Shown: positions 11,990 to 58,415 of the stretch, piece after piece | How positions within the stretch are numbered: position 1 is the first letter of the stretch | How the letters are laid out: every line of letters begins with the position of its first letter | NCBI GenBank assembly: GCA_034359265.1 | Contig: CP136894.1 | Span: 28,488,501 to 28,552,500, forward strand | Reading direction: 5' to 3' | Length of the DNA stretch: 64,000 nt | Source of the DNA: Canna indica | Lineage: Eukaryota; Streptophyta; Magnoliopsida; Zingiberales; Cannaceae | The notes under the pieces: generated by a model | Databases searched by the model: none | What the model saw: only the letters and a program-made list of their open reading frames with translations | Told to the model about the DNA's origin: nothing | Position numbers and translations under genes: made by a program

Positions 11990-12340
11990 CACTACTAGAA
12001 TATTAGCTATCAGCCACGGGGCTCACCGACGACTGCCTGGGCCGTCAGAACCATTCACGGCTCGTATACGGCCGCCAAATGTCGTCGTTCATAAGTGATG
12101 GCGTGCACGGGGCGTGAAATGAAATAACCTAGTAGCGACGGCTTAGCAGGGGGCGAAAGAGCCATCAGTGATATAAGTAAGTAATTAGCCACGGCCAGAA
12201 GCGGTCGTCGATTATTAATTGATGGCGCGAACGCGGCGTGAAAATAAAACAAATGTCATCGACAGCTAAGAGAGGACTACGCGACCATCGCTGACACTAT
12301 TATTAGTTGTCCACGGTTTATTGACGACCGAGGGACCGTT
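11990..12340. repeat. Left terminal inverted repeat and subterminal repeats of CACTA A
   Basis: After the CACTACTAGAAT terminus come diverged repeats built on GCCACGG, GGCCGTC and GACGGC motifs in both orientations. Such subterminal repeats are the TnpA binding region in En/Spm elements. The right end (14580-14947) has the same motifs. Confidence 0.75.
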
Positions 12341-12477
12341 GATGAAAAGCCTTTTTATTTACGTTCACGCCCGATCCTTCCTCTCCCCCTCGCTCTCTTC
12401 TATCTCTGCCGCAGTCGACCGAGATTTGCCGCCGATCGTCCTCTGCACTGTCCGCCGCGACCCTTCTCGCCGTTGAG

Positions 12478-12537
12478 ATGCCACCTACTCCCTCGCCCTC
12501 ACCACTTGCTCCCTCTCCCCTCTCCGCCACCACCAAG
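12478..12537 (+). CDS. Possible first exon of CACTA A gene
   Basis: An ATG at 12478 opens a Pro/Ser-rich 20-codon stretch (MPPTPSPSPLAPSPLSATTK) that ends in AAG|GTGAGT, a good plant donor site. The upstream GC-rich leader differs sharply from the AT-rich DNA that follows. It could be the first exon of the gene whose later exons begin at about 13138, or an exon orphaned when the TNP2 part was lost. I infer this from composition and the splice site only. Confidence 0.35.
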
Positions 12538-12779
12538 GTGAGTTCCTCCCCTCTCCCCTCTCCGGGCCGACGCCGACCAATTTTGTTTTAATTTTTTTTA
12601 AAATTAGATTAATTAGTTGTTAATTAGATTTAATTAGGTTTCTTAATTATTGTTAATTAGTTTTGTTAATAATGGTTAATGCTAGATTTAATTAGTTGTG
12701 TTAATTAATTAGGGTTATTTGTTAATTAGATTTAATTAGGGTAGAATAAATATTAGGGTTAATTTTAGTTGGTTGTAAT

Positions 12780-13140
12780 TACAATTTTAAAATCGTCCAC
12801 TTTGGACTCGCGTGCGCCAGAATCGTCCACTTTGGACTTGCGGCCAAATCATCCACGGTGGACTCGCGCCGGAATCATCCATAATGGATGGACTCACGCA
12901 GACAGGAATCGTCCAGTTTGGACTCATGACCAAATCGTCCACGGTGGACTCACGGCCAAATCGTCCACGGTGGACTCTCGGCCAAATCGTCCATGGTGGA
13001 CTCGCCCCTGAATCATTCACAATGGATGGACTCGCGCGCATCGGAATCGTCCACTTTGAGCTCATGGCCAAATCATCCACAGTGGACTCACACCAGAATC
13101 GTCCACAATGGATGGACTCGCGCCGGAATCATCCCTGTGA
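12780..13140. repeat. Dyad-rich tandem array in CACTA A
   Basis: There are about a dozen units of 26-31 bp, each containing AATCGTCCA, a short centre and TGGACTC, so that each unit holds a small palindrome such as GTCCACGGTGGAC or GTCCACTTTGGAC. Unit centres vary while the arms are kept. A similar array lies in CACTA B at 45847-46130. The apparent reading frames through it (WTHDQIVHGGL-type repeats) follow from periodicity and are not taken as genes. Confidence 0.85.
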
Positions 13141-14311
13141 GCGTATGGATTTATTGTGGCAAGAGTTCTCGGTAAGTATATTTATTAAATTAATATTAAT
13201 GTTAAATATTGATTGGTGATAATAAATTTCTTCTTGGAAGCTCATTATACATGGGCGGAGGACCAGATCACTTTTGTTGAGGCTGCATGGGAGCGTGTTG
13301 CCCGCGCTCACTACAACGGGTTGCTTCAGCAGGCCCATCAGACCGTGATGAGATGGTGGGGGGCCACACAGATAGGGCAGATTCGGGGACATGCCCCTGA
13401 GTGGATTCCTGGCCCTGTGTGGGACCAACTCATTGAGCGGTGGGCCACACCTGAGTGGCAGGAGGTCTCCCGGACTGCGTCGAGAAACCGCATGTCCGGG
13501 GGGGACGGCACGGGGGCGCGCCACACTGGTGGCTCTGTTCCTTTTGTGGTTCATGAGCGTCGTATGGTATATATAATTTAATTATTTTTAATTAAATTAT
13601 ATATTATGTATAATGATACTAATGTATTTATTTTCTAATGTAAGACACGCATGGCGAAGGACGGCACTGTCCAACGCCCATCAATGATGGAGGTGTTTGA
13701 GCGCACTCACCGTCATCGACAAGGAGAGGGGGACTACGTTGATAGCATAACCTCGATCATAATGGTAAGTATTTATGTCTATTTGATTCACACAATTTTT
13801 ATTTATAGTTTATATATATTTAAAATATAAACACGTGTAGAAAACATACATGAGGACTATGATCAAGCGTGGAGGCACACTGGAGGAGTTCGACGTAGGA
13901 GCTTGGGTGGAGGCCGCAGGTGGCTGGCAGCATGGCCATATTTATGGCTTTGTAGACAGTGGCCATGCACGCACCGTGCTTGGGCCACTTGGGGCACTGA
14001 CCCCTCCGGCTGTGGGTGAGTGACCCTCGACATCCCGAGCACAGGACCAGAGTCGGATAGAGGCCTTGGAGTCAGAGCTCACGCAGCAGAGATAGGCGAT
14101 GTAGGAGCATAGGCTGGCGTTGGAGGAGCAGAGACAAACGAATGAAGAGTTGAGACAGACGATGAACATTCAGGCACTCCTCACTCAAATTGCGTCTCAC
14201 TCTGGCCTTCTACCATTGATGTCGTAGCCGTCATCCTCCTCGACCCAGTCGACGATCCCGACCCAGTCGCAGTCGACTCCACTACCTCCACCGCCTCCAC
14301 CGCAGTCGTGA
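13141..14311 (+). pseudogene. TnpA-like CACTA gene (Transposase_24 family), element A
   Basis: The exons can be read by comparison with element B. A short exon with MDLLWQEFS ends at GTAAGT near 13170. The next starts near 13239 (HYTWAEDQITFVEAAWE) and ends at the donor after ERRMV (about 13565). The next begins after AG near 13645 (MAKDGTVQRPSMMEVFERTHR) and ends at GTAAGT near 13765. The last (about 13842-14311) holds a Gln/Glu-rich coiled coil (ESELTQQR, EEQRQTNEELRQT) and a Ser/Pro-rich tail. This is the Ptta/En/Spm-type protein of CACTA elements, thought to bind the ends. Stops inside the last exon (near 14024, 14094, 14101 and 14226) and loss of the 5' exons make it a pseudogene. The exons are very close to those of element B. 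Confidence 0.75.
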
Positions 14312-14579
14312 GATTTTAATTTATTGTATTTTTGTTTATATTTTGATAGTTGTTTGTATATTGATAGTTGTTTATATACTTATGGTTGTATCTATATGAT
14401 ATTTTAATAATTGTTTGCCTCCGGTTTGAGGCTTAGGTTGCTGATATTTATGTAAAACTTGTATGTTTGGTTTTAAATACATGTGTATGATGTTTTTTGG
14501 TTGTAATCTATGATTGAAAATAGATTATAATCTATAAATATCATTGTATATAGAAATTTACAAAAATTTATTCTTTTCA

Positions 14580-14947
14580 GTTACAGGATATACCTTCAAC
14601 CAAGGCTTACCCACGGTCGACCGTCACTAAGCCGTGGCTGAAAGCTTATCGTAAATGGCTGATGGCCTAGGCAGCACCAAATAGCATAGTTGCTAATTGT
14701 ATCACTCACGGTCTGAAGCCGTGCTTGATGCGTTTGTATCAGTGACAATCGCCTACAGCCATCACTAATGTGTTGAAATCAGCGATAGTGCCCGTGGCTA
14801 TCGCTGATGTTTACTTGTGATGGCTGGGAGAGGCCATCACAACTTATTTGAGACACGCACATCAGTGACGGTGTTTTGTCATGGATAACGCTGTCCGTGA
14901 TAGTTATCACTGACGGTTCACCCACGGCTTGAGCCGTCAGTGATGAT
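14580..14947. repeat. Right subterminal repeats of CACTA A
   Basis: There are repeated GCCGTGGCT, CCACGG and GCCGTCA motifs in both orientations, ending at CAGTGATGAT where the Copia derivative is inserted. The terminal bases of the CACTA element resume at 24519 (ATGACGACAATTCTAGTAGTG). The end of element B (53400-53775) is homologous and uninterrupted. Confidence 0.8.
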
Positions 14948-24518: not shown

Positions 24519-24542
24519 ATGACGACAATTCTAGTAGTGTAT

Positions 24543-45523: not shown

Positions 45524-45600
45524 GTTGACGGTGATGTCGGCGCCATGATTTGGGGCCGATTACCATCGGCCCCAAAGCAAACAGTAGCCGACAGTGATGC
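45514..45600. repeat. Inverted and direct repeats at the left edge of CACTA B
   Basis: A perfect 12-bp inverted repeat (arm TTTGGGGCCGAT, 45549-45560 and 45565-45576) has a 4-bp loop (TACC). It lies between two direct copies of GCAAACAGTAG (45514-45524, 45577-45587), each followed by related YYGACRGTGATG. The first copy of GCAAACAG also finishes the Copia protease fragment. Confidence 0.8.
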
Positions 45601-45846
45601 CAGCTACTATTGATACATGATTAGGGTTTAATTAACCCTAATCAATCACTTGATTAGGGTTTAATTAACCCCTAATCAAACTATGATTAGGGTAATCACA
45701 GTTTGATTAGGGTTTAATTAAATCCTTTAATTTTTTATTGTTAATTAGGTAATTAGTTTGGTTAATATTAATTAATGGTAAATGTTGATTAGGGTTTAAT
45801 TATTTTTAGGTTAATTAATGAAATTAGATTAAAGAAATTAGTATTA

Positions 45847-46130
45847 ATGGAATCGTCCACTGAAGACTCGCGCCGGAATCATCCACTATGGCCTCGTGGC
45901 CCAATCGTCTACTTTGGACTCACGGCCAAATATATCGTCCATGGTGGACTCGCGCCGAAATCGTCCATAATGGATGGACTCGTACCAAAATCGTCCAATT
46001 TGGACTCGTGGTACGTCAAATCGTCCATGGTGGACTCACGTCGGAATTGTCCATAATGGATGGATTCGTGCCGGATTCGTCCACTTTGGACTCGCGCGGA
46101 ATCGTCCACTATGGACTCGCACCGGCATCC
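45847..46130. repeat. Dyad-rich tandem array in CACTA B
   Basis: Diverged 26-31-bp units with AATCGTCCA and TGGACTC arms (GTCCACTATGG, GTCCATGGTGGAC, GTCCACTTTGGAC) lie upstream of the transposase gene. It is the same repeat as 12780-13140 in element A, at the same relative place. Confidence 0.85.
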
Positions 46131-46571
46131 ACAAATTTAGAAAAAAATCAACACAAGTTGATATGTTTCACGTACGCAACGATGAGTCAAGTTTTAATTT
46201 TGCAAAACCTTATATCCGTTCGGGGGTTGTATGTTCGTGTATACGAAGTAAATGATCTTTTATACGACGTACAACCCTTGAATTGTCCCTAATTGGATAA
46301 TTTGGGAACATAGTTATTTTTATTGCACTTAGTTTATTTCTTTTAGTCATTATTCATTTTTAAATTTTGGCTTGTATATCCCTTGTTCTCTGATACACGC
46401 CCAGATGATATGTGTATTCGGAGAAATGTAGGGAGATGCTGCCGAAATTTAGAATGAAGTTAATGATAAAAGAAATTATAAGTCCAATATAAATAACATG
46501 AATCCCGAATGGAATAGGACCATCCCACCTGAAGACATTACCTAAAGATATTGTCAACTTTTTGAGAGAAC

Positions 46572-48489
46572 ATGTCGGGCAATCGAAGTTGGATGTACCG
46601 ACGAATTCATCGTAGAGCTATAACGGATGAATTTCGAGTAGGCGTAACTTACTTCTTAAATTTTGCCTACTCGAATCAAAAAATCATTAGTGGTGATAAA
46701 ATTCGATGTTCGTGCCGAAAATGTTCGAACATAAGATTTTTGGATCGAGAAACTGTATACAATGCATCTGTATACAAAAGGATTCACACCAACATATTTT
46801 ATATTCACACAAAAGAATTGTCACGGGGAGTCACGTCAAGTCGGGACGTCGAGCAATCCTATTGTCCAAACTCATGGTGAATCTTCTTCTACTAGTGTTT
46901 CTTTTTCCAATCCATCTAATCCTTATAGAACAATGATTCTGGATAGTTTGGGAGGATAATTCTATTTAAATTATAATATTGAGTCAGTTATTGAAACGGT
47001 AGTGCCACCAGATACTACGACAGTTGAAGTCACTGAAGAACAACTTGAGATACAGATTGAATTGCCGAATAAGGAGGCTGCAGAATTTTACGAGATGTTG
47101 AAAGCTGTCGATGAACCTTTGTATGAGAATTGTCCTAATTATACAAGATTTTCGGCAATGACACAACTCCTGAACATCAAGTACGATTGTAATATCAGCG
47201 GGGTTGCGTTTGATCGGATTGCAGGCTTTATCAGTGGTATGCTACCTCCAAATAACAAGTTTGAGCCAACCTTTTATAAGACAAAAAAGTTGATGAGAAA
47301 ATTAGAGCTTGGGTACGAAAAGATACAAGCGTACCCAAATAACTGCATTTTATATTATAAAGAAAATGCACAGTTAGAGCAATGCCTGGTATGTGAACAT
47401 CCTCGTTACAAGGAAGAAATCGGTCCGACAAAAAAATATCTCCTTTAAGGTGCTTCGGTATTTTTCACTGAAACCGAGGCTTCAAAGGTTATTCATGTCG
47501 GAAAAGACTGCCCCCTATATTAGTTGGCATGCAAGAAGTCGTGATGATACAGTAATGACGAATTCATTTGACAATAAAGCATGGAAACATTTGGATATGT
47601 GTTATCGTTCATGTTCTAGGGATACTTGTTGTCTGGTGAACAGATGTTAGCATGTGTTCAATTGCTTCCAGAGATTACTTTTAGTCAGAATGTAAGAATT
47701 TCAGGCTTTGGTCAAACACATAACTGGGTGAAAAAAAGTATCTTTTGGGAATTGCCGTATTAGAGTTCATTACTGATTCGACATAATTTGGACATCAAGC
47801 ACATTGAAAAAAATGTTTTTGATAATATTTTTAACACTGTGATGGATATTTTCGACAAAACTAAAGATAATGTGAAAACCCGACATGATGTGAAAATACT
47901 TTGTAAGAGACCTGAGTTAGTGTTGCAAGAGGTCAACGGATAACTTCATAAGCCAAACGCCCCGTATGTGTTAAATAAACAACAGATGAAAGATGTGTAT
48001 CGATGGATCAAAGAACTCAGATTACCCGATGGATATGCCTCAAACTAATCTCGATGTGTAAATGTCGATGAATGCAAAATATCGGGGATGAAGAGCCACG
48101 ATTGTCATGTATTCTTGCAGAGATTGCTTCCGGACGTGTTTCGAGATCATCTACATGATAAGATTTGGGGTATGTTGATAGAATGAAGTATGTTTTTCAA
48201 AAACATTTGTATAAATGTACTTCGAGTCGATAAGCTGGAGTAGTTTTTCCCTCCTGCATTTTTTGACTCGATGGAGCATCTACCGATACACTTGGCATAC
48301 GAGGCACGAGTTGGTGGCCCCATTCAATACCGGTGGATGTACTTATTTGAAAGATACAAGAAAAAAGTAAAGAACACCGCCGTAGTTGAAGGTTCCATAT
48401 CAGAAGCATATATAATTCAAGAAATTTCCACAATCTGCTCATTTTATTTTGAATCAACCATCAAGAAAAGACTTAATCGTCTTCCTTTT
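46572..48489 (+). pseudogene. TNP2-type CACTA transposase, N-terminal and central part
   Basis: The gene opens with a transposase-associated zinc-binding domain (MSGNRSWMYRRIHRR, then CSCRKC; PF13963 type) at 46572-46880. TNP2 core segments follow (ENCPNYTRFSAMTQLLNIKYDCN, GYEKIQAYPNNCILYYKE, then VLRYFSLKPRLQRLF in a shifted frame). After a deletion near 47645 the sequence resumes with KKSIFWELPY, IEKNVFDNIFNTVMD and KSHDCHVFLQRLLPD, then a DUF4218 region (MEHLPIHLAYEARVGGPIQYRWMYLFE, VEGSISEAYIIQE). It stops at TIKKRLNRLPF, where 5S rDNA begins at 48490. It would cut and join the element ends. Several stops and frame changes make it dead. Confidence 0.9.
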
Positions 48490-48558
48490 GTTAAGGGTGG
48501 TTGGGCGAGAGTATTACTAGGATGGGTGACCCCCTGGGAAGTCCTCGTGTTGATATCC
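48490..48558 (+). rRNA. 5S rRNA fragment, 3' half (copy 1)
   Basis: It matches plant 5S rRNA from TTAAGGGTGGTTGGGCGAG to GTGTTGATATCC, including GGATGGGTGACC. The 5' half is missing, replaced by TNP2 transposase sequence. A T-run follows. A truncated edge unit of the cluster. Confidence 0.88.
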
Positions 48559-48914
48559 TTTTTATTACTACCTAATTGAATGCACGACGAGATCATTTTT
48601 TTTATCAATCTTTCTAACCAAATGTTCAGGACGTCCCCAGAAAATTTGGCCGTCGATCGCCCATGTGGGGCCCGCCGAAACCTCTACGGGCTGCTCGATC
48701 GACCAACCAACCCGAAAAATTAAAATTTGTAAATAAATAAGAAAATAATATTTTAATTATTATTTTTTATTTAAAACAGGGGTAACTCCGTGCATGATTG
48801 TTCGGTTTTAGCTTTTCACGTGGCACTGAAAGGCGCGCGAAGAGACGAAGAAAATTACCTCGAGCTCTCCCTCGGACGCTCACCCTTATTGGTCGACGAT
48901 CAGAAGTGCATGAC
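48559..48914. other. 5S rDNA long spacer 1
   Basis: This 356-bp spacer has CTACCTAATTGAATGCACGACG, ATGTGGGGCCCGCC, an AATTAAAATTTGTAAATAAATAAG stretch and CTCACCCTTATTGG. It recurs at 49378-49742 and 50105-50470. No TATATA box lies 25-30 bases before the 5S start. Confidence 0.85.
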
Positions 48915-49033
48915 GGGTGCGATCATACCAGCACTAATGCACCGGATACCATCCGAATTTCGAAGTTAAGGGTGCTTGGGCGAGGGTAGTACTAGGATGG
49001 GTGACCCCCTGTGAAGTACTCATGTTGCACTCC
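48915..49033 (+). rRNA. 5S rRNA gene, variant (copy 2)
   Basis: This 119-bp unit runs GGGTGCGATCATACCAGC to GTTGCACTCC, followed by a T-run that would terminate RNA polymerase III. It differs from the usual plant 5S at several bases: GGATACCATCCGAATTTCG in the middle, TTAAGGG for TTAAGCG, and GTGAAGTACTCATG near the 3' end. Internal promoter regions are recognisable but altered; expression is doubtful. Confidence 0.92.
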
Positions 49034-49156
49034 TTTTTTTACTACCTAATTGAATGCACGACGAGATCATTTTTTTGTACCAATCTTTCTAAGCAAACGT
49101 TCAGGACGGACGACGTTGTCCCCATAAAATTTGGCTGTCGATCAGAAGTGCATGAC
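49034..49156. other. 5S rDNA short spacer 1
   Basis: This 123-bp spacer shares both ends with the long one (CTACCTAATTGAATGCACGACG and GATCAGAAGTGCATGACG) but lacks the central 240 bp. It recurs at 49862-49985. Confidence 0.85.
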
Positions 49157-49274
49157 GATTGTGATCATACCAGCACTAATGCACCGGATCCCATCAGAAC
49201 TCCGAAGTTAAAGGTCCTTGGGCGAGAGTAGTACTAGGATGGGTGACCCGTTGGAAGTACTCGTGTTGCACTCC
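49157..49274 (+). rRNA. 5S rRNA gene, variant (copy 3)
   Basis: This 118-bp unit runs from GATTGTGATCATACC to GTTGCACTCC and a T-run. The 5' two thirds are close to the plant consensus; TTAAAGGTCC replaces TTAAGCGTGC, and one base is lost near GACCCGTTGG. A degenerate copy. Confidence 0.9.
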
Positions 49275-49297
49275 TTTTTTTTACTACCAATATTTAA

Positions 49298-49377
49298 ACA
49301 ACTCCGTAGTTAAGGGTGGTTGGGCGAGAGTATTACTAAGATGGGTGACCCCCTGGGAAGTCCTCGTGTAGCACTCC
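49298..49377 (+). rRNA. 5S rRNA fragment, 3' two thirds (copy 4)
   Basis: It begins at AACTCCGTAGTTAAGGG, so the first 40 or so bases are absent, and ends GTGTAGCACTCC with a T-run. A TTACTACCAATATTTAAACA join separates it from copy 3 without a spacer. Shares TTAAGGGTGGTTGG and AGTATTACTA variants with copies 1 and 6. Confidence 0.88.
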
Positions 49378-49742
49378 TTTTTATTACTACCTAATTGAAT
49401 GCACGACGACATCATTTTTTTATTAATCTTTCTAACCAAACGTTCAGGACGGACAACGTCGTCCCCATAAAATTTGGCCGTTGATCGCCCATGTGGGGCC
49501 CGCCAAAACCTCTACGGGGCACTCGATCGACCAACCAACTCGAAAAATTAAAATTTGTAAATAAATAAGAAAATAATATTTCAATTATTATTTTTTGTTT
49601 AAAATGGGTGTAACTCCGTGCATGATTGTCATGTTTCAGCTTTTCACGTGGCACTGAAAGGCGCACGAAGAGACGAAGAAAATTACCCCGAGCTCTCCCT
49701 CGGATGCTCACCCTTATTGGCCGACGATCAGAAGTGCATGAC
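49378..49742. other. 5S rDNA long spacer 2
   Basis: A 365-bp spacer of the long type, closely similar to 48559-48914 throughout. Confidence 0.85.
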
Positions 49743-49861
49743 GGGTGCGATCATACCAGCACTAATGCACCGGATATCATCAGAACTCCGAAGTTAAGGG
49801 TGCTTGGGCGAGAGTAGTACTAGGATGGGTGACCCCTTGGGAAGTACTCGTGTTGCACTCC
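49743..49861 (+). rRNA. 5S rRNA gene, variant (copy 5)
   Basis: This 119-bp unit is the closest to the plant consensus: GGGTGCGATCATACCAGC, GAACTCCGAAGTTAAG, GCTTGGGCGAGAGTAGTAC, TAGGATGGGTGACC and GTGTTGCACTCC with a T-run. Differences include GATATC for GATCCC, TTAAGGG for TTAAGCG and GAAGTACTC for GAAGTCCTC. It could still fold as 5S RNA. Confidence 0.94.
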
Positions 49862-49985
49862 TTTTTTTCACTACCTAATTGAATGCACGGCGAGATCATT
49901 TATTTTTACCAATCTTTCTAACCAAACGTTCAGGACGGACGACGTTGTCCCCATAAAATTTGGCTGTCGATCAGAAGTGCATGAC
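49862..49985. other. 5S rDNA short spacer 2
   Basis: A 124-bp short-type spacer, almost identical to 49034-49156. Confidence 0.85.
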
Positions 49986-50104
49986 GGTTGCGATCATACT
50001 AGCACTAATGCACCGGATCCCATCAGAACTCCGTAGTTAATGGTGGTTGGGCGAGAGTATTACTAGGATGGGTGACCCCCTAGGAAGTCCTCGTGTTGCA
50101 CTCC
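49986..50104 (+). rRNA. 5S rRNA gene, variant (copy 6)
   Basis: This 119-bp unit runs GGTTGCGATCATACTAGC to GTTGCACTCC with a T-run. It has TTAATGGTGGTTGG in place of TTAAGCGTGCTTGG, and AGTATTACTA as in copies 1 and 4, but keeps the normal GAAGTCCTCGTGTTGC 3' end. A long spacer follows. Confidence 0.92.
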
Positions 50105-50470
50105 TTTTTTTTACTACCTAATTGAATGCACGACGAGATCATTTTTCTTATCAATCTTTCTAACCAAACGTTCAGGACGAACGACGTCGTCCCCATAAAA
50201 TTTGGCCGTCGATCGCCCATGTGGGGCCCGCCGAAACCTTTACGGGCCGCTCGATCGACCAACCAACCCAAAAAATTAAAATTTGTAAATAAATAAGAAA
50301 ATAATATTTCAATTATTTGTTTTCGTTTAAAACGGGCGTAACTCCGTGCATGATTGTTCGATTTCAGCTTTTCACGTTGCACTGAAAGGCGCGTGAAGAG
50401 ACAAAGAAAATGACCCCGAGCTCTCCCTCGGACGCTCACCCTTATTGGCCGACGATCAGAAGTGCAGGAC
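50105..50470. other. 5S rDNA long spacer 3
   Basis: A 366-bp long-type spacer leading to a truncated 5S start. It closely matches the other two long spacers. Confidence 0.85.
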
Positions 50471-50490
50471 GGGTGCGATCATCCATCCGA
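50471..50490 (+). rRNA. 5S rRNA fragment, 5' end only (copy 7)
   Basis: GGGTGCGATCAT is followed by CCATCCGA, which in copy 2 lies about 24 bases further on; so a short deletion between CAT repeats is likely, and the unit then passes into transposase sequence. This is the right edge of the 5S cluster. Confidence 0.7.
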
Positions 50491-51465
50491 GATCGTTGGA
50501 ATGACGACGGGGGGGGGGGGGGGGGGGGGGGCTCGACCATCAGATGGTTGTTTAAGTATCTTTTGTTACCCTGGTCGTGCTTTGGGTTCTAGTCCGTCTC
50601 TATTACTAAATGACGAAGAGTACCATTTGTCGTACTTGTACGTTTTACTAAACTGTCCAGTGATTGAAAAGTTCATTGAAATATTTGACATTGAGATGGT
50701 GACAAAATACTCAATTTAAAATGATGAGAAATTAGAAAGATTATGGAATCGTGAGTTCCCTAATTGGTTTCAAGCTTACAACACATAACACAGAGGCGAA
50801 TTAGATAACCAAATCTTTGAATTTGCTAGTGGACCGACACAACTTGTATAGTGTTTTAACGGTTATTTTGTTAATCGATATAAATTTCACACACTTGAAT
50901 ATTCATCTACAAAAAAGACTATGAATGTCGGGATCTATGTCAAAGGGACAACGTATGCTGAATGTGATGTTGACTTTTACGAACTATTGGAAGAAGTCAT
51001 AGAATTGCAATTTGTCGGATGTAAATCAGTTGCTCTTTTCAAATGTCATTGGTTCGATACAAGTGATAGGGGCATGAGAGTTCATCCAAAGTATAAACAG
51101 TTGGTCGAGGTCAATTACAAATAAAAATTGACTTCAAATGAGCCATTTATATTGGCATCTCAAGCTGAACAAGTAAGACTAAAGCCAGAGAAAAAATTAA
51201 CCCTATAGTTGGAGAGAATGAGCCAGCAGATGACTTCTATCAAGAAGAGGATCCTTCCGAAGTGGAACAAGTTAGTCCAATAGTCGAGGATGATGACACA
51301 AAGTTAGTTCAATTAGAAATAGAATATGTTGATGACGACGATAATGAAGTTGAGGAAGGACAGAATGATGATGAAGGAGAAGAAGAAGAATTTCAAGATT
51401 CTGATACAGAGGAACAAGAAGAAGAGTATTACACGGATGATGATAATGACGATAACCAATAATTA
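50491..51465 (+). pseudogene. TNP2-type CACTA transposase, C-terminal part
   Basis: After the G-run the transposase resumes: LSIFCYPGRALGS, LNDEEYHLSYLYVLLNCPVIEKFIEIFD (end of the DUF4218 region), then FVNRYKFHT, TMNVGIYVKG, LLEEVIELQFVG, ALFKCHWFDT and NEPFILASQAEQV, which are DUF4216 motifs (PF13952). The C-terminus (51262-51462) is an acidic tail of Asp/Glu runs, common in CACTA TNP2 proteins. Stops at about 50718, 50786, 50850 and 51122 interrupt it. With 46572-48489 it forms one gene cut by the 5S cluster. Confidence 0.88.
50509..50531. repeat. G homopolymer at the 5S-transposase junction
   Basis: A run of 23 G follows AATGACGAC. In TNP2 frame it would code a glycine run after NDD; TNP2 proteins have a short Gly-rich stretch here. 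The run probably expanded by slippage and could also be an assembly weak point. Confidence 0.85.
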
Positions 51466-51547
51466 TAAATGTGAAGTATATATTTTATTATTAAATATAT
51501 CTATTAATTTATTATATATAATCTAATTATATTAAATTTTTATAGCT

Positions 51548-53204
51548 ATGGTTCGAGATATCAGTTCCCGAGGAGGCATTTCTCGTAGGACCCCCCGACG
51601 ATTACCACCAGCCCCACTTGTACCCACTGACCCTTCACCTTCCACCACCATCCCCCCACCTCCGACCACCATCCCCCCACCTAATCCGTCCATCGTTCCC
51701 TCACCTTATCTGGCCACCATCCCCTCACCTCCAGCTACCATCCCTCCACCACCCTCCGCAGATCCAGGACTGTCATCTTCGAGACGTAGGCCACGAGGGC
51801 CTAACAGAATTCTCCCTCTGCCACTCGAGGGAGAACTACGTAGAGCAGTTAGTGTGCGCGGAAGGCGGTAAGTATATGCATCAATTATTTCTATTAATTT
51901 ATTTATAATTAAAAATATCATAATATGAATTTATATTTGGTGCAGATTTAAGCAAGAGGACGTACCCCGCACGATAGCGAGGCCGATCCGGAAGTTTATG
52001 CACGGGGCATGGCCTACATGGTCTCACGTGCCCCGTGAGCATATGGATTTATTGTGGTGAGAGTTTACGGTAAATATATTTATTAAATTAATATTAATGC
52101 TAAATATTCATCGATAATAATTTTTTTTTTTTTACAGGCTCATTATACATGGCCGGAGGACCAGACCACTTTTGTTGAGGCTGCATGGGAGCGTGATGCC
52201 CGCGCTCGCTATAACGGGCTGCTTCAACAGGCCCGTCAGACCGTGATGAGACGGCTGGGGGCCACACAGATAGGCTAGACTAGGGGACACGCTCCCGAAT
52301 GGATTCCTGGCCTTGTGTGGGACCAGCTCGTTGAGCGGTGGGACACGCCTAAGTGGCAGGAGGTCTCCCAGACTGCGTCGAGAAATAGCATGTCAGTGGG
52401 GAAGGCACTGGGGCGCGCCACACTAGTGGCTCCATCTCTTTTGCGGTTCATGCACATCACATGGTATGTATAAATTAATTGTTTTTAATTAAATTATATA
52501 TTGATGATACTAATTTATTTGTTAATTTTCTAATTTAAGAAGCGCGTGGCGGAGGACGGCACTGTCCAACGCTTGTCGATGATGGAGGTGTTTGAGCGCA
52601 CCCACCGTCGTCGACGAGGAGCGGGGGACTACGTTGATAGCAGAGTCTCGATCATAATGGTAAGTATTTATATATGTCTATTTGATTTACACAATTTTTA
52701 TTTATAGTTTATATATATTTAAAATATAAACACGTGTAGAAAACATACACGAGGAGTGTGATCAAACGTGGAGGCACACCGCAGGAGTTCGACGCAGTAG
52801 CTTGGGTGGAGGTCGTAGGTGGCTAGGAGCACGGTCGTGTTTATGGCTTTGCAGACAGTGGCCATGCACGCGCCGTGCTCGGGCCACATGGGACACTGAC
52901 CCCTTCGGATGTGGGTGAGCGGCCCTCGACATCCCGTGCGTAGGACCAGAGCTGCATAGCGGCCATGGAGTCGGAGCGCATGCAGCAGAGACAGACGATG
53001 GAGGAGCAGAGGCTGGCGATGCAAGAGCGGAGACGGACGAATGACTAGTTGAGACAGACGATCCAGAACATGCAGACACCCCTCACTCAAATTGTGTCTC
53101 ACTCTGGCCTTCTACCGATGATGTCGCAGTCGTCGTCCTCCTCGACCCAGTCGATGCTCCCGACCCAATCGCTGTCGACTCCATCGCCTCCACCACAGCC
53201 GTGA
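51548..53204 (+). pseudogene. TnpA-like CACTA gene (Transposase_24 family), element B
   Basis: The first exon (51548-51867) starts MVRDISSRGGISRRTPRR and is Pro/Ser-rich with repeated TIPPP units, ending at a donor after RGRR. Exon 2 (about 51946-52068) has FIRKFMHG-like ARPIRKFMHGAWPTWSHVP. Exon 3 (52139-52463) has HYTWPEDQTTFVEAAWERD and RGHAPEWIPGLVWDQLVERW; exon 4 (about 52539-52660) has VFERTHRRRRG; exon 5 (about 52738-53204) ends in a Gln-rich coiled coil and a Ser/Pro tail. Family is the Ptta/En/Spm type (PF03004). In-frame stops occur in exons 2, 3 and 5. It lies about 80 bp after the TNP2 gene, the normal CACTA order. Confidence 0.8.
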
Positions 53205-53389
53205 GATTTTGGTTTATTGTAAAACTTGTTTGCCTCCGGTTTGAGGCTTAGATTGATGATATTTATGTAAAACTTGTACATTTGGTTTCGAATGCGTGTG
53301 TATGATATTTTTGGTTGTAATATGTGATTGAAAATAGGTTGTAGTCTATATATCATTGTATATAGGAATTTACAAAAATTTTATTCTTT

Positions 53390-53775
53390 TCAGTTAAAGG
53401 ATATACCTTTAGCCACGACTTACCCATGGTCGACCGTCACTAAGCCGTGGCTGAAAGCTTATCGTAAATAGCTGATAGCCTGGGTAGCACCAAATATCAC
53501 GGTTGCTAATAGTATCACCGACGGCTCTGGGCCGTGGCTGATGTGTTTCTATTAGTGACAGCCACCTAGAGCCGTCACTGATGTGTTTAAATCAGCGCAG
53601 CGCCCACGGTTATTGCTGATGAAGACTTGTGATGGTCGAGAGAGGCTGTCACAACTTATCTGAGATGCGCACATCAGTGACAGCTTTTCGCTACGACTGG
53701 TGCCGTTCGTGATAGTTATCACTGATGGATCAGCCACAGCTTCAGCTGTCGGTGATTACGACAATTCTAGTAGTG
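53390..53775. repeat. Right subterminal repeats and terminus of CACTA B
   Basis: It is homologous to 14580-14947 of element A and uninterrupted: GCCGTGGCTGA, CCACGG and GCCGTCA motifs in both orientations, ending TACGACAATTCTAGTAGTG. It shows the empty site for the retroelement nested in A. The next three bases are GTT. Confidence 0.85.
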
Positions 53776-54285: not shown

Positions 54286-55175
54286 TGAGTGATCAATCCA
54301 ATCAATCAAAACCATATCATCACGATCAATCCTGTTGCACAGTTGCCGATCAAACTCATCGGCGCCAGCAATTATTTGAACTGGAAGACTCAGCATGAGC
54401 TTCTGCTCCTTGGGTACGATCTAACCTCTTTTGTAGATGGTTCTTCTTCTTGTCCTCCGATCGGAAGTCCAAATTGTCGACACTGGATCAGACAAGATGG
54501 CCTGATCCGACACGTGATCATGGCCTCTGTAGAGCTAGCGATCGTCACAGTGATCGCCACATCTAACACTGCCTGTGCAGCTTGGCAGAAACTGGCACTT
54601 CAATATGCCAATAAATCTCAATCGAGAATTTATGCTTTACAAGAGTCATTGTCCAAAATTACTAAAGATAGCAAATCTATCTCAGATTACATTAATGAAA
54701 TTAGAACCATTGCAAATGAATTGGCAATGGCTAATTCCCCAATCAGTGATACAACACTAGTAATTAAAATCCTTGGAGGACTAAGTTCAAAATATAATGA
54801 TATCAGTGCAGCGATCAGATCGTGTGACACTGCTATATCATTGGACGAATTATATGACAAATTGTATGGCCATGAGGCTTTCTTATTGCATAGATCAAAC
54901 AAAGTTTCAATTACTGCACAATTCTCTCAAAAACAACAGTCTAATACAAATCAAAATAAGAAGCCATTTAATCAGAAACAGTACTGGCGCAAACCATATC
55001 CTCAAAACAATGCTCGGCAGAACAATTGGAGGCCACCTGCTACCTCAAATCAATTTCCTTCAAACAACAAGGTCAGACTGCAGTGCCAGTTGTGCAACAG
55101 AATTGGTCATTCTGCGAAGACTTACAGATCCAAGTCTCACAATCATGAAGAAGCCCAGGCATACCATATCAGTTG
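54286..55175 (+). pseudogene. Ale-type Copia gag
   Basis: An ATG at 54286 opens a short frame, but the main gag frame (from about 54289) is one base off, so the start is damaged. The gag then reads openly for about 290 codons: ITINPVAQLPIKLIGASNYLNWKTQ, RHWIRQDGLIRHVIMASVE, a UBN2 region (ISDYINEIRTIANELAMAN, ILGGLSSKYNDISAAIRSCD), an Asn/Gln-rich linker and a knuckle CQLCNRIGHSAKTY with the last Cys replaced. It ends near 55175, just before protease. Gag would package RNA. It is the best-preserved gag in the window. Confidence 0.88.
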
Positions 55176-55200
55176 ACAAAACAATCAGTAAAGCAGTTGG

Positions 55201-58200
55201 GTAATGGACTCCGGGGCTTCACATCATGTCACAAGTGACAGTAAAAAACTGCAGTATGCTTCAGAGTATTCTGGTGATGAAGGAGTAACAGTAGGTGATG
55301 GTAAGACAATCAACATCACTCATATGGGTAATTCAATTGTTCACAATTCTGGAAACAATTTTTTGCTTAAAGAAGTTATTTGCGTACCTCATATTCACAG
55401 AAATTTAATTTCTGTAACTCAATTCTGTACTCACAACAATGTTTCTACTGAATTTTTTCCTACTTACTTTGTGGTGAAGGATCTTCAAATAGGTCTGATT
55501 CTTGCTCGAGGAATGAATAAATCGAATGTGTATGAGTGGACTAGTGATGTTTCTCCTACCATAAACTTCGCTTCAACACCAAATAAAGTTTCCCTTCCAA
55601 TTTGGCACCACAGACTGGGTCATCCCAATCACAGAACTCTCAAGTACCTTACTTCTACATTTCATTTACCAATTTCTAAACCTTTGAAACATCAGTGTCA
55701 TGCTTGTTCTTGTAATAAGAGTCATAGACTCCCCTTTGTTGAATCCACTTTGCACAGTAGCAAAATTTTAGAGCTATTACGTGCAGATGTATGGGGTCCT
55801 TCTCCTGTTATATCTGATGATGGCTTTAAGTTCTACCTGTTAATTGTGGATCATTTTAACAAAATATATGTGGATTTTTCCTCTCAAAGCAAAATCCGAG
55901 GTTGCAAGTGTATTTGTCAATTTCAAAACTCTTGTTGAAAAACATTTTAATACATCAATCCTAAACTTTTACACTAATGGAGGAGGAGAGTTTATTAATT
56001 TAGCTGATACCTTTCTCAAATGTGGCATTCAACACTACATCTCTCCTCCCTACACCCCTTAGAGAGTTAGTACAGTTGAGCACCGCCATCGACATATACT
56101 TGAAACTGCTACAACTCTATTGCATCATGCCTCATTGCCTCTAAAATTTTGGCACTATGCATGTGCTACTGTCACTTTCCTCATCAACAGGTTACCTACA
56201 CCTATACTAAAAGGCAATTCACCTTATCAGATGTTGTTCAAAAATTCTCCTTACTATACCTCTCTGAAAAGTTTTGGATGCCTCTGTTATCAATGGCTTA
56301 GGCCATATTCGACAAGCAAACTTGATCAAAAATATAAGCCTTGTGTTTTCCTAGGCTACTCTATCAAACATCATTGTTACCAATGTCTGGATATCTCTTC
56401 TTCCAGAATATACACATCTCGACATGTTGTATTTAATGAAATAATATTTCCTTTTAAAACCAATCAACTTCATCTTCCTCGAACAGTTTCAAATACTGAT
56501 AGCTGGTTCGAAGTCACTCCCTCCTCTGCTACAAATTCTCTACATCTACCAATTTATGAAGATATAATAGTCACTTATGGCATCGCAATACCTCCTGCTT
56601 CAACACCAGCTTCTACATCAACACCAGACACCTCCTCTTCATCACCTTCTCCACATACAAAAACTCACCATTGCTTGACATTCCAGGTCCTGATACTCAT
56701 TCAGTCTCGAGCAACAACTAGACTGAAGGAAATCCTCAGTTACCACTTCAAGTTGAGCAACCAATTCGGATGACAACCAAGTCACAAAACAATATATTCA
56801 AGCCTCGCAAACCTCTGGATTATAGTGCTTTGGTCATTTTTGTAGATACTCCAGGGAATAGTGAAGCAGGCTTTGAAAAATGATCAGTGGAGGCTAGCGA
56901 TGATAAAAGAATTTGAGGCATTAACAAAGAACAACACATGGACCTTGGTTCCTCCTCATCCTTCTCATAATATAATTGGGTGTAAGTGGATTTTCAAGGT
57001 TAAACAACAGGCAAATGGTGAGATTGAAAGGCATAAGGGTCGGTTAGTTGCCAAAGGCTTTAATCATCGACCTGGCATTGATTTTGGTCTCACTTTCAGT
57101 CCTATGGTTAAGCCTACGACCATCTGGATTTTACTTACAATTGCAACAACAAACAGATGGCCAAATTATCAGATTGATGTAAACAATGCATTCCTACATG
57201 GCACCATGGAGGATGATATTTACATGTCTCAGCCACCTGGGTTCATCAGTAAGCAACATCCTACTTATGTTTGCAAACTGCACAAAGCCATCTATGGCTT
57301 AAAACAAGCTCCTCGGGCTTGGTTCAATGAGTTCAAGAGGTTCATTTGATCTATTGGGTTCAAAGAGTCAAAATCTGATAGCTCTTTGTTCATGCCGATT
57401 ACTTCAAGTTTCAAAGTTTTTTTGCTTCTATATGTCGATGATATAATCTTGACAGGCAGTTCTGAAGAAAAAATTCAAGAAGTTTATTTGGCTTTGTCGA
57501 AAAGGTTCTCACTCAAAGATTTACAATCACTCTCTTACTTCTTAAGAATTTAAGTTCTTCAAACTCCCAATGGCTTGCCTCTCTCGCAAAAGAAGTATAT
57601 CTCGGATGTCCCGCATAAGTTCAAAATGCTTGATGCAAAAGGAGTAAAAACTCCTTTAGCATCCAAAGTTACACTTCAGCTACATGACACTACTGAACCT
57701 ACTGACTCTTCTCCAATATAGAAGTGTTGTTGGAGCCCTACAGTATTTGAGCTTTAGAATACCAGACATTTGTTTTGTCGACAATCGCCTTTCATAGTTC
57801 ATGCATTGTCCGCGAGCTTCTCACTGGAAGGCCTGCAAAAGAGTGATGTGTTACCTCAAAGCCACACAAAATCTAGGTCTGTACATTGCTCCTACTCTTC
57901 CACTATCCTTACAAATATTCTCTGATTCAGATTGGGGGGGCAATGTCGATGATCGATGCTCTACAAGAGCCAACATCACATTTCTTGGTGGAACTCCTGT
58001 CAGTTGGTCTTCAAAGAAGCAACGCACTGTTGCAAGATCATCAACAGAAGCAGAGTATCGAGCATTGGCAAACGCAACAGCAGAAATAAATTGGGTAAAG
58101 AATTTACTGGAAGAAATTACAATCTCAGTCCCTTTCACTCCCAATGTTCTGTGTGACAATCAAGGAGCAACATTTCTCTCAAATAACCCTGCCTTCAACA

Positions 58201-58415
58201 GTCGAATCAAGCATTTGCATATTGATTACCATTTCGTGAGAGAACAAGTTCGGGACAAAATTTTACAAGTCAGTTATGTTCCTTTTGAACACCAACTCGC
58301 AGATTCTCTCACGAAGGCTGTACCCACGAAGCAATTTCTCGAGCACAGATCCAAGATAGGTATCATGGATATCGCTACCTATCTTGAGGGGGCATATAAA
58401 GGATTAAAATCCTGA
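55201..58415 (+). pseudogene. Ale-type Copia pol (PR-INT-RT-RH)
   Basis: Protease has VMDSGASHHVTSD at 55204. The pre-integrase region has WHHRLGHPNHRTL. In the integrase, the catalytic SDGGGE motif reads YTNGGGEF (Asp to Asn), and NGVSERKHRH reads VSTVEHRHRHILE; a frame change at about 55910 and a stop at 56060 interrupt it. RT (56861-57730) has YQIDVNNAFLHG, YGLKQAPRAW and YVDD near 57435, with stops near 57347, 57551 and 57718. RNase H (57801-58415) is open: SDSDWGG, SSTEAEYRAL, CDNQGAT and LADSLTKAVPTKQF. Domain order is typical Copia. Dead by several stops and the integrase change. Confidence 0.9.
58386..58392 (+). other. Polypurine tract of the Ale-type Copia
   Basis: GAGGGGG overlaps the end of the RNase H frame, as is common in Ale-type elements. 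A 3' LTR is expected to follow. Confidence 0.55.

Follow-up and report, generated by a model that had tools for sequence, protein, structure and literature searches.

The 64,000-nucleotide stretch of Canna indica DNA analysed here (the window; C5:28488501-28552500 of an assembly of 752,891,900 bases in nine contigs, and free of N throughout) contains 2,012 bases of tandem 5S rDNA, positions 48486-50497, inside the TNP2 transposase gene of a CACTA element. The insert comprises four complete and three partial 5S genes and has retained their spacers. As a 5S orphon it is a known kind of event, and very probably it was joined into a resident, decaying CACTA copy at a double-strand break by end joining. 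The features on which this reading rests are collected in Table 1.

Table 1. Features of the 5S-bearing CACTA copy and its insert (positions in the window).
Feature	Position	Strand	Evidence or remark
Left part of 5'-truncated CACTA element	45538..48485	+	Family homology reaches 45537-45538 at most
Transposase-associated domain (PF13963)	46584..46763	+	E 6e-12
Deletion point, ~525 bases of family missing (~176 residues of TNP2 core, by one relative)	47626..47629	.	tblastn and family comparison
DUF4218 (PF13960), end of TNP2 transposase	48247..48483	+	E 1e-27
Inserted 5S rDNA, 2,012 bases	48486..50497	+	22/22 empty sites in readable copies; left junction unique
Partial 5S gene, B type, from 5S position 51; long spacer after	48490..48560	+	
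Complete 5S gene, A type; then short spacer	48915..49033	+	Rfam 92.3 bits
Complete 5S gene, cut short by following copy	49157..49274	+	Rfam 95.8 bits
Partial 5S gene, 3' part, B type; then long spacer	49300..49377	+	Rfam 39.1 bits, match 49279-49374
Complete 5S gene, A type; then short spacer	49743..49861	+	Rfam 103.7 bits
Complete 5S gene, B type; then long spacer	49986..50104	+	Rfam 89.2 bits
Partial 5S gene: first 12 bases, plus 8 bases matching 5S positions 35-42 (weak)	~50471..50490	+	Reading and exact 8-base match
Right-junction pattern of insert	across 50497/50498		ATCATCCATCCGAGATCGTTGGAATGACGACGG
Right part of same CACTA element, ending TAGTG at 53771-53775	50498..53775	+	Comparison with family copies
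Run of 23 G inside NDDGG codons of right CACTA flank	50509..50531	+	Most family copies: five G, GGGGGAGCT
DUF4216 (PF13952)	~50999..51115	+	E 3e-7; 31.4 bits vs cut-off 30.6

The 5S units of the insert

5S genes were called with the Rfam model 5S_rRNA (RF00001) at its gathering score of 38 bits. The four complete genes all exceed this score (89-104 bits, E values of 9e-18 to 1e-21). Together with the three partial genes they confirm the seven complete or partial units that a preliminary description, made from the sequence alone, had counted in this region. The partial gene at the left end obtained 37.7 bits against the cut-off of 38 (E 2.7e-5) in a match spanning 48445-48558, of which 48490-48558 is the 5S portion, and the seventh unit was recognised by reading together with its eight-base match. 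Elsewhere in the window, outside 48490-50490, nothing reached the gathering score for 5S. Viral contigs scanned with 21 bases taken from upstream of the 5S gene showed no match.

Units with a short spacer (243 bases) and units with a long spacer (484 bases) alternate along the insert, and a cut-and-join separates the third copy from the fourth. The genes are of two types, A and B, each set apart by common substitutions; the gene at 49157 seems to be a mosaic that passes from B to A, its 5' part appearing B-like and its 3' part A-like by eye. Pairwise differences among the four complete genes range from 6.7 to 12.6%. When six of the copies were scored for promoter elements with motifs taken from the available part of PMC7215508, box C matched at 13 of 13 positions and box A at 9-11 of 12. 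Judged from their sequences, the insert units are probably silent pseudogenes.

The CACTA copy and its empty relatives

The preliminary description had placed the 5S DNA between the DUF4218 and DUF4216 parts of one TNP2 gene, and this placement is upheld by the Pfam domains on the two sides, by tblastn, which aligned a single gene split at the insertion point, and by the 22 empty copies described below. Matches to PF03004 (TNPA-like) scored 19.5 and 16.3, below the cut-off of 28.7. When the TNP2 reading was compared with proteins, the best match showed 48% identity, and the highest identity among the best 120 of 2,083 matches was 60%. The peptide RLNR(V/M)PRNDDGG is read through the insertion point in three of the 120 relatives listed (P0007, P0037 and P0068), and a 5S-coded motif was absent from 136 proteins, consisting of these best 120 of 2,083 TNP2 matches and 16 matches to a copia gag, with at most 52% identity to it. 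A Ty1-copia element with several long open frames is located just right of the CACTA 3' end (54289-58415); its gag was identified by Pfam, its other parts by eye.

The 5S-bearing copy is damaged elsewhere too. Most of its TNP2 core is deleted, and besides this deletion of ~525 bases the transposase gene carries in-frame stops and small indels. The 5' terminus is missing as well, ~690 bases of the family being gone with the CACTA end included, and upstream in the window the family 5' end is matched at a single place, 11990, which is part of another copy. A search for CACTA termini within the window alone gave no convincing pair, and the 3' end at 53775 was recognised after comparison with family copies. 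That copy (11990-14947) also belongs to the family and has an internal deletion; it has the 5' terminus CACTACTAGAAT and no clear TAGTG at its 3' end. The same terminal motif, CACTACTAGAAT, is also found on the minus strand at 24528-24539, outside any assigned element.

A Gly/Asp stretch had been noted beyond the 5S DNA. Its NDDGG codons are indeed present; the supposed Gly stretch consists of 23 consecutive G, in place of the GGGGGAGCT usual in family copies. The run starts 11 bases right of the right insert edge and is due either to slippage or to a sequencing fault.

The family has a length of ~7.5-7.7 kb. Two copies of which both ends were read measure 7,492 and 7,692 bases by coordinates, start with CACTA and end with TAGTG, and are flanked by 3-base target-site duplications (ATG/ATG for copy A and CGT/CGT for copy B). 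The left-flank query, for which the best 40 of 7,497 candidates were scored, gave matches of 91-92% identity over its first 1,177 bases, the window itself apart; for the right-flank query the best 40 of 5,998 candidates were scored. According to the left and right flank matches scored, copies of the family are present on all nine contigs. For copies on C2 (71.19 Mb), C3 (21.11 Mb) and C9 (52.36 Mb), matched by coordinates, the right-flank match lies 24-45 bases from the left-flank match.

Twenty-nine other family loci were fetched, among which the insertion site was readable in 22, lacking in six and truncated in one. The site was empty in all 22 readable copies, and none of the 29 loci contained a match to 5S or to the long spacer. 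The empty site most frequently reads CTTCC-AC-GGAACGACGACGGGGG, AC being replaced in variants by TC or AT, for example, and the window has at this position CTTCC, then 2,012 bases, then GGAATGACGACGGGG. Thus, the target lost ~2 bases (one, if the copy had TC) and no target-site duplication was made, in agreement with the preliminary description, which had seen no duplication at the 5S edges. Its break of the gene by 5S DNA likewise stands, and from the 22 empty copies we correct the exact limits to 48485/48486 and 50497/50498. The outermost bases of the insert, four on the left and seven on the right, may be filler. At up to three mismatches the left-junction pattern occurs at one place in the genome, and a control pattern at none. 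The 5S-bearing copy differs from the family consensus by 5.7%, the mean for the 29 others being 3.3%; these 29 are the best matches to the window, so no age order is drawn from this small contrast.

The insert and the other 5S loci of the genome

On contig C8, 21 of the 23 blind samples taken between 27.2 and 48.5 Mb (loci L052-L060 and L065-L078) consisted to 97.8-99.8% of 5S unit; the exceptions, at 41.5 and 43.5 Mb, were not 5S. None of nine samples just outside this interval (26.0-26.8 and 48.9-52.0 Mb) contained 5S. By this sampling the C8 array extends over ~20 Mb and, by extrapolation, holds ~40,000 units of ~485 bases, with changes of orientation. It is possibly centromeric and may represent a 5S-derived centromeric satellite. 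The available parts of the papers concerned give two large 5S clusters of ~3.5 and 4 Mb for banana (PMC8423783) and more than 20,000 5S copies for pike (PMC5437419). The large centromeric 5S arrays of banana and switchgrass, which in the same part of PMC8423783 are of megabase scale and lie in the body of the chromosome, resemble the C8 array and not the insert.

A second 5S locus of ~24 kb is located at C6:40311080-40335024 (L083 and L084); its edges were read, and its interior is known from pattern matches. At its low edge, position 381 of the 5S unit adjoins a CACTA copy of this family that lacks its 5' end; the copy is joined at family position 355, a different point from that of the C5 insertion. 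At the other edge no family 5' end was found within the 2.3 kb read. Two independent 5S-CACTA junctions are present, one on C5 at the DUF4218/DUF4216 site with ~2 bases lost, and one on C6 at family position 355. Family pieces were found in one of 11 non-5S samples (~400 of 10,800 bases, very roughly 4%), and for this reason the C6 coincidence is not strong evidence and may be due to chance. A third minor 5S locus, at C8:23.60 Mb, showed no family match in the 2.3 kb past its high edge, and the stretch fetched toward its low edge was still 5S.

When the genome was searched with the insert 5S and the best 8 of 5,820 candidates were scored, all matches outside the window were on C8. The 484-base insert unit shares 87-93% identity with units from seven stretches of C8. 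At up to three mismatches, a motif from the 5S long spacer is present at 2,590 places in the genome; among the 100 places listed, three are in the insert, six on C6 and 91 on C8. Compared with the C8 consensus, the four complete insert genes show 8-12 differences in 118-119 positions and the three long spacers 28-35 in 355-364. The short-spacer parts show 14-15 in 121-122, in an alignment that is poorer because they run into the deletion joint. Gene and long spacer of the insert are altered about equally. Among 35 C8 units the pairwise difference is 5.6% in the gene and 4.7% overall, and since such equal change is also seen in these units, it is no sign that decay followed the insertion; the insert units may already have been decaying beforehand.

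The insert units lie ~3-5% from their common ancestor. In two trees, built from 74 and 57 sampled rows (71 and 54 others, respectively), the three long insert units formed one clade with 100/99 support, and a branch of the second tree, supported by 99/96, had the insert on one side together with four C8 units (from 42.5 Mb) and three from C6. The insert and the C6 units may thus come from a shared older donor. At the 15 columns where the insert units agree against the C8 consensus, the insert base was found in none of the 35 C8 units at ten columns, in 1-2 of 35 at four, and in 15 of 35 at one. One of these columns is position 24, where the insert has T, the usual angiosperm base; across eight C8 stretches this position is C 52 times, A 43 times and T twice. 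The source of the insert may have been an older state of the array, or another locus.

The short-spacer pattern occurs at five places in the genome, two in the insert and three on C8. The C8 places were considered as donors and rejected: by reading, the short unit at C8:30619387 (one mismatch) has neighbours that are C8-type variants, which points to an independent deletion, and the two places with three mismatches look like ordinary long-spacer ends. Within C8:30614500-30624400 (L050) the short-spacer unit lies at the repeat GTCGATCAGAAG, as in the insert, and seems to have arisen independently.

Origin of the insert

We infer from these sequence comparisons that the insert arose by break repair. 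About 2 kb of 5S rDNA would have entered, as DNA, a double-strand break in the resident CACTA copy, and end joining would have sealed the break with a loss of ~2 target bases and without target-site duplication. The donor was DNA and not 5S RNA because spacers are present, which excludes retroposition of 5S RNA. End joining fits because ~2 bases are lost, nothing is duplicated, and short unmatched tracts are present at both ends. Comparison with the empty site of the 22 other copies points to end joining, rather than transposition, as the cause of the lesion.

The donor was perhaps an extrachromosomal 5S circle, or else a linear fragment of an array. A circle is suggested because the ends of the insert, at 5S position 51 on the left and at position 12, perhaps 42, on the right, are about a whole number of repeats apart. 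We estimate that roughly one random cut in six would give ends as near to a whole unit, and regard the near-whole-unit ends as weak evidence and the circle as a guess. The 16-base right tail (50484-50499, which includes two flank bases) matches 5S no better than did 258 of 2,000 shuffles. In the available part of PMC3225859, 5S circles are described in plants and their integration is proposed as a source of orphons. Like the 5S orphons of that account, the insert lies away from the main array and contains more than one 5S unit, spacers included; unlike them, it can be placed with almost single-base precision, in one CACTA gene with empty relatives.

It might be asked whether the junctions are real. 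Tens of thousands of genomic 5S units, by extrapolation, are available for mis-joining into a CACTA copy, and the 23-base G run is only 11 bases from the right edge. The window has no N, however, and the flanks together make up exactly one family site less ~2 bases. Moreover, insert bases found in 0 of 35 C8 units at 10 of 15 columns show that this is not simply a mis-placed piece of the C8 array, and we hold an assembly artefact to be very unlikely. The exact continuity of the flanks bears equally on a reversed order of events, in which CACTA inserted into a 5S array that was later lost, or two CACTA copies recombined around a 5S block. A 5S array does adjoin a truncated family copy on C6, but here the flanks continue one gene with ~2 bases lost, which for two separate copies would be a coincidence, and the window outside 48490-50490 has no remnant that reaches the 5S gathering score; such an order is improbable. 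A Cassandra-type retroelement array, or another retroelement with a 5S promoter, would account for tandem 5S units ~240-480 bases apart, and Cassandra tandem arrays can imitate 5S arrays according to the available part of PMC7215508. In the accessible portions of PMC7215508 and PMC10853983, Cassandra TRIM retrotransposons contain 5S-like sequence, for which, as in the insert, a tandem arrangement is possible, and have this 5S inside LTRs with a tRNA-Met primer site adjoining the LTR. The insert has no such site: TGGTATCAGAGC is absent from 48486-50497 at up to two mismatches, the nearest match being more than 4 kb off. In addition, the long spacers match C8 5S units over nearly their whole length, which leaves a retroelement origin with a negligible chance.

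The preliminary description suggested that a mobile carrier could result; on this reading the 5S DNA was captured by the CACTA element as cargo, and 5S loci were seeded when the element moved. CACTA elements are reported to hold 5S-like sequence (PMC5688495, in the part available, citing Wicker 2003), and the C6 5S locus adjoins a truncated copy of the same family and has its units on the insert's side of the 99/96 branch. Against this, 5S was found in 0 of the 22 readable other copies, so that a multi-copy 5S carrier failed among the copies read, and the left junction is unique genome-wide at up to three mismatches. Furthermore, the family sequence is joined to 5S at a different point on C6 (position 355), and the 100/99 clade of the insert units does not include those of C6. 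Lacking the 5' terminus and ~525 bases of the core, the 5S-bearing copy is therefore no mobile carrier. With no other copy among those read and with break repair, as we see it and of whatever age, at one locus alone, the carrier idea fails on the terms that the preliminary description itself had set, and capture is highly implausible. The search for further 5S-bearing CACTA copies that it had proposed gave a divided answer: none of 22 copies has 5S in the same place, and a 5S-family junction does exist elsewhere in the family, on C6. A wider possibility, which we judge unlikely, is that encounters between 5S DNA and this CACTA family exceed chance. Circles of 5S released from the very large C8 array might then regularly enter breaks in family copies, such as those left by failed excision, and some of these insertions might grow into minor 5S loci. 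Repair of a break by end joining remains our preferred reading; the event appears confined to a single locus and is most likely an accident of DNA repair in a dead element.

In the available parts of the literature searched, outside which most subscription journals lie, we found no CACTA transposase gene with an insert of several 5S units. Among the closest likenesses are 5S fragments within nested transposable elements of Triticeae. In the accessible parts of PMC6178165 and PMC5688495, 5S rDNA lies beside CACTA or En-Spm fragments, as it does here, in clone Aesp34 of Aegilops speltoides and in the wheat 5BS region. Aesp34 has a short 5S piece of 201 nt with 47 nt of En/Spm, as given in the part of PMC6178165 available, whereas the insert has 2,012 bases; in the wheat region, again from the part available, transposable elements lie mostly within 5S rDNA, whereas here 5S DNA lies within a transposable element.

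For Canna indica, the greater significance may lie not with the insert but with the C8 array of ~20 Mb, which offers a large donor pool. The insert provides a nearly base-exact case of 5S genes leaving their array. It is relevant, too, to the older view, set out in PMC6178165, of 5S loci being moved by En/Spm elements, and offers a counter-example to CACTA-driven 5S mobility: 5S DNA found inside a transposon need not have been carried by the transposon.
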